NCBI GenBank assembly: GCA_902595375.1
Contig: CACJPW010000005.1
Span: forward strand, 1-42,309
DNA: 42,309 nucleotides
Source of the DNA: an uncultured Pelagibacteraceae bacterium
GTDB taxonomy: Bacteria; Pseudomonadota; Alphaproteobacteria; Pelagibacterales; Pelagibacteraceae
Direction: 5' to 3'
In this document: in pieces, positions 6,590-7,871 of the stretch
Layout: each line of letters begins with the position of its first letter
How positions within the stretch are numbered: the stretch's first letter is position 1
Notes under the pieces: model-generated
What the model was told of the DNA's origin: nothing
The model's input: only the letters and a program-made list of their open reading frames with translations
Database searches by the model: none
Made by a program: the position numbers and the translations under genes

Positions 6590-6611
6590 AAATAATAGAT
6601 TAACATATAAT
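6585..6611 (+). promoter_or_regulatory. Candidate sigma-70-type promoter for hspQ
   Basis: TTCACA (6585-6590, five of six matches to TTGACA) is followed after 15 bp by a perfect TATAAT at 6606-6611. The spacer is shorter than the ideal 17 bp. The 77-bp gap between the divergent yciB and hspQ genes must hold promoters for both. In such AT-rich DNA this match could be chance. Confidence 0.3.
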
Positions 6612-6666
6612 AAACTTTAAACAAATTAGATATTGATTTTAACGTAAAAATTACTAACTATGAGTC

Positions 6667-6990
6667 ATGGCAATAAGCAATAAAGCAAAGTTCTCAATCG
6701 GTGAGGTTGTGAAACATAGACATTTTGACTTCAGAGGCGTTATTTACGATGTTGATTTTGAATTTAATAATTCCGAGGAATGGTATCAATCAATTCCTAA
6801 AGAAGTAAGACCGAGAAAAGATCAACCATTTTATCATTTGTTAGCTGAAAGCAATGAGGTAACTTACGAGGCATACGTTTCTGAGCAAAACCTTCTATTA
6901 GATAATTCAAATGAACCTCTTAAACATCCTCTTATCGAGGAGATTTTTTCTGGAAAAAAAGGGTCAAGTTACCTAAAAATATCCAATTAA
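6667..6990 (+). CDS. hspQ: HspQ family heat shock protein (YccV-like, hemimethylated-DNA-binding fold)
   Basis: The 107-residue protein matches HspQ/YccV: FSIGEVVKHRHFDFRGVIYD near the N-terminus, then DVDFEFNNSEEWY, and a long insert ending in DQPFYHLLAE and YVSEQNLL. HspQ binds hemimethylated DNA in vitro and in E. coli acts as an adaptor and substrate of the Lon protease. The ATG at 6667 gives the usual start. An out-of-frame seven-codon open frame (6660-6683) overlaps the start. The gene stands alone, divergent from yciB and 173 bp upstream of ccmC. Confidence 0.88.
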   Translation: MAISNKAKFSIGEVVKHRHFDFRGVIYDVDFEFNNSEEWYQSIPKEVRPRKDQPFYHLLAESNEVTYEAYVSEQNLLLDNSNEPLKHPLIEEIFSGKKGSSYLKISN

Positions 6991-7026
6991 TCACTGGTCG
7001 CCCAAAATTTAACATTTTTTCCTCAA

Positions 7027-7116
7027 ATCTGTGACATACAGATAACCTAATATTTTAAAGTTATAGCCCAATTAGGAAAAAATTCTTATTTACTCCCTCC
7101 CTTTCTTAGTTGGGCT
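7027..7116 (+). ncRNA. Candidate structured RNA / ccm leader with a C-rich loop
   Basis: The 173-bp gap 6991-7163 between hspQ and ccmC holds two hairpins. The first is ATCTGT/ACAGAT (7027-7032 with 7038-7043) with a 5-nt loop. The second pairs 7065-7079 with 7102-7116, 15 bp counting G-T pairs, with core AGCCCAA / TTGGGCT. Its loop carries ACTCCCTCCC, which resembles the anti-Shine-Dalgarno CCTCC of 16S rRNA. No T run follows, so it is not an intrinsic terminator. It could be a leader of the ccm operon or a small RNA with an anti-SD loop; a known family was not recognised. Confidence 0.4.
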
Positions 7117-7163
7117 CAAAATGGAACTTCACAAAAAAATATTATTATAGTAGATAAAAACCT

Positions 7164-7871
7164 ATGATTAAATTTTTTTCTAATAGCAATATATTTTTTT
7201 GGATTGAAAAATTAACAAATTTTATCAATTCAATATTTTTTATAGTCCTTTTAGTTGCAATAAGTTTTGCATTAATCTTATCTCCCCCAGATTACTTGCA
7301 GGGTGACAGTGTTAGAATTATGTATGTGCATGTACCGGCTGCGTGGATAGGTCTAGCATCTTTTTTTTGTATTGCTTTGCTATCCTTAGTAAATTTTATA
7401 TTTAAAATTAAAAATTTTAATTTGATTTCTAAAAGTATAGCACCGATTGGTTTGGTGTTTACCTGTCTTGCAATTATTACAGGTTCCTTATGGGGACAAC
7501 CAACTTGGGGAACATTTTGGGTTTGGGATGCAAGGATTACATCCATGTTAATACTTGCTATATTTTATATAATTTTCATATTAAGCTATAAGTTAATTTC
7601 TGATCAAAAAAAAGCTGATAAAATTTCTAGTTTTGTAGCCATAATTGGATCAATTAATTTACCAATTATTAAGTACTCAGTTGATTGGTGGAATACCCTT
7701 CATCAACCTGCAAGTATTAAAATTCTCGGCGCAAGTTCAATACATTCATCAATGTTAGTGCCTTTATTTCTAATGTTTTTTGTGTTGATACTGTATTGTG
7801 CGTTAATTTTTCTAATGAAATATAAGACAGAAATCATTAGAATAAAGAAAAAAAATTTAAAAAGATTATGA
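7164..7871 (+). CDS. ccmC: Heme exporter / apo-CcmE heme-loading protein CcmC
   Basis: CcmC is the inner-membrane protein that loads heme onto CcmE at the periplasmic face during System I cytochrome c maturation. The 235-residue protein has six predicted helices. The tryptophan-rich WWD motif is at residues 110-126 (WGQPTWGTFWVWDARIT). The flanking heme-ligand histidines are His55 (MYVHVPAAW) and His180 (DWWNTLHQPAS). It is the first gene of a tight operon and overlaps ccmD by four bases (ATGA). ccmA and ccmB, usually just upstream, are absent from the window; hspQ sits there instead. Confidence 0.96.
   Translation: MIKFFSNSNIFFWIEKLTNFINSIFFIVLLVAISFALILSPPDYLQGDSVRIMYVHVPAAWIGLASFFCIALLSLVNFIFKIKNFNLISKSIAPIGLVFTCLAIITGSLWGQPTWGTFWVWDARITSMLILAIFYIIFILSYKLISDQKKADKISSFVAIIGSINLPIIKYSVDWWNTLHQPASIKILGASSIHSSMLVPLFLMFFVLILYCALIFLMKYKTEIIRIKKKNLKRL

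Follow-up and report, generated by a model that had tools for sequence, protein, structure and literature searches.

A conserved hairpin with an anti-Shine-Dalgarno loop downstream of hspQ in the Pelagibacteraceae, a putative small RNA with proteorhodopsin as a candidate target

What might be the role of a long hairpin that stands between hspQ and the ccm operon of a SAR11-like bacterium? The window, by which we mean the whole stretch of 42,309 nt that was analysed (positions 1 to 42,309 of contig CACJPW010000005.1, assembly GCA_902595375.1), belongs to a SAR11-like bin of 858,590 bases that is 68% complete; the named relatives of its genus (g1 in our numbering of genera) are Pelagibacteraceae, including HIMB058. 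The hairpin is flanked by hspQ (6667–6990, + strand; identified by the Pfam YccV-like domain and by synteny) and by ccmC (7164–7871, + strand; Pfam Cytochrom_C_asm), which lie on the same strand. A preliminary description, made from the letters alone, had offered three readings of the element: a free small RNA, a processed 3' end of hspQ, or a leader of ccmCDEFGH responding to heme or iron.

The hairpin occupies positions 7065–7116 of the + strand, with arms at 7065–7079 and 7102–7116, and is real: its 15-bp stem, described from the start as containing G-T pairs, consists of 13 Watson-Crick and 2 G-U pairs, and it folds at -18.5 kcal/mol, as against a mean of -8.2 for shuffled sequences, with none of 200 shuffles equalling it (z -4.66). 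That z value refers to the + strand of a 62-nt stretch, the - strand of which gave -2.49. The loop (7080–7101) is 22 nt long and contains ACTCCCTCCC, within which the anti-Shine-Dalgarno-like seed CTCCCTC lies at 7093–7099. No T run follows the stem, as had been noted at the outset; a scan of 6990–7200 gave no terminator-like site, and an intrinsic terminator of hspQ, with a GC-rich stem and a T run, was rejected on that ground. No 3' end is visible for the hairpin RNA, which might also run on into the operon downstream.

Conservation was followed first through ccmC and then through hspQ. The search for ccmC covered 61 genomes and succeeded in 50; of the 30 loci read, 29 were from g1 and one was from another family, which had no hspQ at the corresponding place. 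All 29 g1 gaps, 165–194 nt in length, have the hairpin after hspQ, and 28 have the loop sequence CTCCCT, the exception being CTCACT (locus L028). In an alignment of 25 distinct g1 rows, 98.9% of the stem cells are paired and 5 of 14 pairs have changed on both sides, while structures slid by 1–3 columns pair in at most 60%. Searching for hspQ in 60 genomes of the family gave 55 with the gene, of which 52 loci were read (G090, G525 and G537 were left out). The hairpin is present in 52/52, spread over 14 genera, and its loop reads CTCCCT in 51 and ATCCCT in one, so that the anti-Shine-Dalgarno-like character first ascribed to the loop of a single genome extends to the family. In one genome (G514, genus g181) the stem was missed by the automatic fold and its arms were recognised by eye.

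For the cross-genus alignment we used the 26 of 31 hairpins that had computed coordinates, excluding five with over-long or hand-set arms. Here 98.5% of 328 cells are paired (286 Watson-Crick, 37 G-U, and 5 neither, of which two are A-C), compared with at most 51% for slid structures. All 13 pairs have changed on both sides, and the 70 double-change cells stand against a shuffled mean of 21.2, a value as high being reached in 0 of 500 shuffles. The excess of G-U over A-C cells (37 versus 2) identifies the + strand as the conserved one. This is the covariance analysis across SAR11 relatives that the preliminary description had proposed, together with the remark that a stem not conserved in relatives would speak against the element; the stem is conserved, through compensatory change. 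It has been freely rewritten across genera while the loop core CUCCCU has stayed nearly fixed, and we regard it as practically certain that the hairpin is a selected RNA structure. Among the best 80 of 574 named relatives, 79 have a hairpin holding TCCC in its loop; the hairpin is absent from L316 (AG-439-F03), where another reading frame follows hspQ. Twelve loci with stems of the type found in genus g6 read CUCCCC rather than CUCCCU in the loop (L328, L332, L335, L336, L340–L343, L346–L348 and L352).

The hairpin appears to be a feature of this family. In another sampled family of the order (f2), no such hairpin could be seen by eye in 12 of 12 hspQ loci, and in all 12 the next gene starts no more than a few tens of bases past the end of hspQ. 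The class sample comprised 142 genomes, 57 of them with hspQ, and the 28 hspQ loci outside the family that were inspected by eye had no hairpin of this kind. Distant second hspQ paralogues (40–45% identity) in g178 genomes (L168, L169) likewise have no such hairpin by eye. A model trained on g1 gave, in 190 genomes of the class, 13 matches at E ≤1 besides the window's own, the best at 0.0022 (L062); neither L062 nor a further match, L063, has hspQ. In 297 genomes of the order, strong matches (E <0.001) to this model were confined to g1 and g9, and four g1 genomes gave weak or no matches (G079, G220, G010 and G229, the first also without an hspQ match); in genera other than g1 and g9 the hairpin was located through hspQ and not through the model. 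Two exact g6-type stem patterns had no match in viral contigs, a weak test of phage carriage as stems vary.

The reading that we prefer, with a probability of roughly 0.6, is that the hairpin is a separately started small RNA that pairs at Shine-Dalgarno sites without Hfq, with proteorhodopsin as its best-supported target. Transcription would begin at a dedicated promoter in the gap between hspQ and the following operon, and would place the 5' end of the RNA at the foot of the hairpin or close to it; the stem would serve as a scaffold, and the loop core CUCCCU as an antisense seed for purine-rich Shine-Dalgarno sites, pairing without Hfq and lowering translation. The AGGGAG of the proteorhodopsin mRNA, which in several genera is exposed by a leader hairpin in its loop, would suit a loop-loop contact. 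Hfq (PF17209) could not be detected in any of 14 genomes (13 of the family and one of f2), while the same search matched 5 of 14 control genomes, including E. coli and Caulobacter. That the RNA is a regulator acting in trans on Shine-Dalgarno sites is, on the sequence evidence, rather probable. We offer only tentatively the fuller version, in which an Hfq-independent small RNA controls proteorhodopsin through loop-loop pairing at the ribosome binding site (RBS), a joint change of loop and RBS has occurred in at least one genus, and a response regulator acts on the promoter.

Since the loop reads CUCCCUC, genomes were searched for GAGGGAG followed at 3–12 nt by ATG, which takes up an earlier suggestion to look for targets near start codons. 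Eight g1 genomes gave 80 matches and the reversed control 51; ten g6 genomes gave 109, compared with 80, a modest excess in both genera. Among these 189 matches, 100 loci were opened. One start recurred, as GAGGGAGGTTTTC-ATG in 7/8 g1 genomes and as GAGGGAGTTTTTT-ATG in 10/10 g6 genomes, and where opened it was that of a rhodopsin (Pfam Bac_rhodopsin; 7/7 in g1 and 8/10 in g6, the unopened ones being G073 and G084). Thus GAGGGAG is found in the proteorhodopsin RBS of 17 of the 18 genomes of g1 and g6. Other plausible GAGGGAG starts were each found in a single genome only; we take them to be dapD-like, ctaD-like and iron-binding-protein-like genes and a few transporters and enzymes.

Rhodopsin was found in 49 of 60 family genomes, and 48 leaders were read. 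AGGGAG is present in 29 of these proteorhodopsin-like leaders, namely in all of those from g1 (7/7), g9 (6/6), g6 (6/6), g8 (5/5), g179 (3/3), g183 (1/1) and g184 (1/1), and in none from g5 (0/5), g7 (0/7, six of which have AGGGGAT), g178 (0/5), g10 (0/1) or g181 (0/1). As background we took the first ATG of open reading frames of at least 100 aa, a crude call, from the window together with 20 stretches of 20 kb; AGGGAG occurs at 1 of these 391 starts. Shine-Dalgarno cores look rare there in general, with GGAG no more than 20 nt away from the first ATG at 17 of the 391. The predicted duplex of the rhodopsin RBS with the loop of its own genome is stronger than those of 383/391 background starts and ranks first in 16 of 21 genomes; other high-scoring duplex starts, when inspected, lay mostly inside overlapping coding sequence. 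Loops shuffled at equal composition matched the RBS as well in at most 5% of 200 cases for g1, g6, g7, g179, g181, g183, g184 and three of four g8 genomes, in 9–14% for g9, and at higher rates in g5, g10 and g178. In g1, g6, g9 and g184 a small hairpin of the leader carries the Shine-Dalgarno sequence of proteorhodopsin in its loop (L208–L230; stems GAAAAC/GUUUUC or AAAAAC/GUUUUU), and it is possible that this leader hairpin is itself a control element. Nested co-folding of the two RNAs gave -23.5, as against -18.0 and -5.3 separately, almost no gain under a model that excludes kissing contacts.

The strongest of the alternatives is that the hairpin is a small RNA aimed broadly at the Shine-Dalgarno sites of many mRNAs, and that proteorhodopsin is matched only for its rare strong Shine-Dalgarno sequence. 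Several observations fit this. The excess of GAGGGAG starts over the reversed control is no more than modest, and such starts also open other genes in single genomes. Over the background starts, pairing energies with the loop and with what we take to be the 16S tail sequence are correlated (r 0.78), and in g1, g5 and g9 the proteorhodopsin RBS fits the 16S tail as well as or better than the loop, the loop match in g5 being weak. The hairpin is also kept in eight loci whose genomes gave no rhodopsin match (G264, G310, G513, G515, G518, G529, G532 and G538, all incomplete bins), and in genomes of g10, g178 and g181 in which the leader of proteorhodopsin is without the site, which means that other targets matter or that the target claim is wrong. 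Against it speak the genera g6, g7, g8, g179 and g184, whose RBS has moved away from the 16S tail in the direction of the loop and clearly fits the loop better, and the rarity of AGGGAG among background starts. Against it, too, stands g7, where the loop reads AUCCCC and the RBS GGGGAU, with a duplex energy of -13.6 kcal/mol with its own loop versus -7.6 to -9.2 with those of other genera, so that loop and RBS appear to have changed together. Swapping loops among 12 genera was not significant (2326 of 20000 permutations were as good), as is expected where the seed hardly varies; yet this result gives no support either. On balance the broad reading seems to us unlikely. Returning to the reading with a preferred target, proteorhodopsin appears to be the best candidate where its gene carries the site, with a strong loop match in seven genera, the apparent co-change in g7, and no match in g10, g178 and g181; we would put the chance that it is truly among the targets somewhat short of even. 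The twelve loci with CUCCCC loops provide a natural test of target co-variation.

A second question is whether the hairpin RNA is started on its own account. Upstream of it, an array of the form AACA-N9-CA-N7-GACA-N11-TA could be anchored between the hspQ stop codon and the hairpin in 52/52 gaps, a count that is partly due to construction as the anchoring relied on the first three boxes or gave them preference. In the window these boxes lie on the + strand at 7011–7014 (AACA), 7024–7025 (CA) and 7033–7036 (GACA), a possible activator site spanning 7011–7036, and are followed 11 nt after GACA by the -10-like hexamer TAATAT (7048–7053). The positions independent of the anchor are also conserved when weighted by genus: TT at array positions 7–8 (93% and 99%), A at 27 (93%) and TA at 37–38 (92%). 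CA repeats every 11 bp, and the last CA stands 11 nt before TA, which we take to be the geometry of PhoB/OmpR-type promoters. The foot of the hairpin lies 5–12 nt past the TA hexamer in most sequences. From this spacing and the fixed array we infer a promoter with a start near 7060–7065 (+ strand), and it is likely that the hairpin RNA has a promoter of its own, although a sigma-70-consensus promoter was not found in 6990–7200. A regulon sharing the array was looked for and rejected: when the window was scanned together with 20 further stretches of 20 kb, no copy other than that of the window exceeded the lowest training score (17.9; the next was 16.3). A second hairpin had been proposed upstream, at 7027–7043. 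It does fold in the window genome (-5.5 kcal/mol), but a fold of at least 5 pairs at -3 kcal/mol or better is found in only 5/29 g1 gaps; as a conserved element it was rejected, and what is conserved at this site is the GACA box.

The array bears directly on the next alternative, namely that the hairpin lacks a separate promoter and belongs to the 3' end of the hspQ mRNA, where it would stabilise the message, act as a non-canonical terminator or be processed into a 3'-UTR small RNA. In the loci read, the hairpin is always downstream of hspQ and on the same strand, as such an element would be. Yet a fixed-spacing array with a -10-like TA, lying between the stop codon and the hairpin, would then need another reason; the T run is missing; and a stabiliser would need no fixed loop. 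We consider this explanation improbable as a whole, and a processed hspQ 3' end, as the preliminary description had it, is less likely than the free small RNA it also proposed, which the upstream array favours.

The idea of a heme- or iron-sensing ccm leader finds some footing in the position of ccmC, which is the next gene in most genera and could be reached by read-through in the absence of a terminator. A conserved box, CTTCACA..TATTATAGTAGT, is seen between the hairpin and ccmC in most g1 gaps (window ~7126–7154) and is perhaps the ccm promoter; genera other than g1 look different in this region. Synteny breaks in three genera contradict a ccm leader or riboswitch. In 11 loci, five each from g10 and g178 and one from g180 (L084, L089–L092, L095, L097, L100 and L103–L105), ccmC is absent after the hairpin, and the next genes resemble, by eye, the PagL-family and FMN-dehydrogenase genes found downstream of the ccm operon in the window; the hairpin is retained in 11/11. 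Eight of these 11 genomes have ccmC elsewhere, and the CTCCC motif is missing upstream of it, on the gene strand, in 8/8. The hairpin, judged by gene order, is thus independent of ccm, and the leader reading is left without support and highly improbable. Just as improbable is a hairpin whose loop is recognised by an RNA-binding protein rather than by base pairing, which would suit a near-fixed single-stranded motif on a freely changing stem, as well as a second pyrimidine motif, ACTTCTT, that is common in g1 loops, but leaves both the complement at the proteorhodopsin start and the g7 co-change unexplained.

As in the preliminary description, no known RNA family could be recognised. At the gathering score, Rfam (release 15) matched nothing in the window hairpin or in 11 related loci. 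The only match in the window was an ffh RNA motif (RF01793; 27451–27503, + strand, 43.4 bits), 20 kb from the hairpin. A permissive scan of 6600–7400 gave four sub-threshold matches; one, to a CRISPR repeat model (17.2 bits versus a cut-off of 39), fell on the loop's minus strand and was taken as chance. The published literature that was searched gave no account of an hspQ-linked SAR11 hairpin RNA. Marine small RNAs were reportedly described by Shi et al. in 2009. Closest in lineage are the structured RNAs of 'Ca. Pelagibacter ubique' (Meyer et al. 2009, PMC2704228), which are likewise conserved and intergenic and share the ffh motif with the window. In the parts of that report consulted, Table 1 had no row naming hspQ or ccm (rows marked 'hyp. 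protein' are ambiguous), and no motif described there fits. The regions listed there were longer than 100 bp and above about 26% GC (PMC2704228), and six measured g6 gaps have 23–32% GC, so that some would fall below that cut. The word hspQ is absent from the main text, as far as consulted, of a Red Sea RNA-seq study of 5' ends (PMC5069720).

By analogy, the hairpin may work like other RNAs with anti-Shine-Dalgarno loops, with which it shares a C-rich motif in an accessible hairpin loop (52/52 loci; CTCCCT, once ATCCCT). The alpha-r14 sRNAs, such as NfeR1 of Sinorhizobium meliloti, have ultraconserved anti-Shine-Dalgarno motifs in hairpin loops on differing stems and act at translation start sites, including those of ABC-transporter mRNAs (PMC10746234). 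They have, however, three hairpins, each with CCUCCUCCC in an unpaired region (PMC10746234), whereas the SAR11 RNA has one, with CUCCCU; the alpha-r14 motif (as DNA, CCTCCTCCC) is found in 0/52 gaps, and membership of that family was rejected on both motif and hairpin number. SisA-D of Caulobacter (alpha-R8) use a short anti-Shine-Dalgarno seed and repress many mRNAs, with pairing aided by Hfq (PMC12559287), a protein that was not detected in the 14 genomes of the SAR11 order. RNAIII and the Rsa RNAs of Staphylococcus aureus have accessible UCCC loops aimed at Shine-Dalgarno sequences and form loop-loop pairs with mRNA (PMC3861533); they belong to an unrelated lineage and RNAIII has several hairpins, and we claim no shared ancestry.

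SAR11 bacteria have been described as dominating the aerobic heterotrophs of marine surface waters (PMC2704228); they are said to possess relatively few transcriptional regulators (PMC13198564), and protein changes unmatched by transcript changes have been reported for them (PMC2864753). A family-wide structured RNA with an anti-Shine-Dalgarno loop is a concrete candidate for post-transcriptional control in bacteria that seem to have no Hfq. If the hairpin acts on proteorhodopsin, post-transcriptional tuning of a light-driven proton pump would become directly testable, and the hairpin might prove to be a switch of protein synthesis, so far undescribed, in some very abundant bacteria of the ocean.
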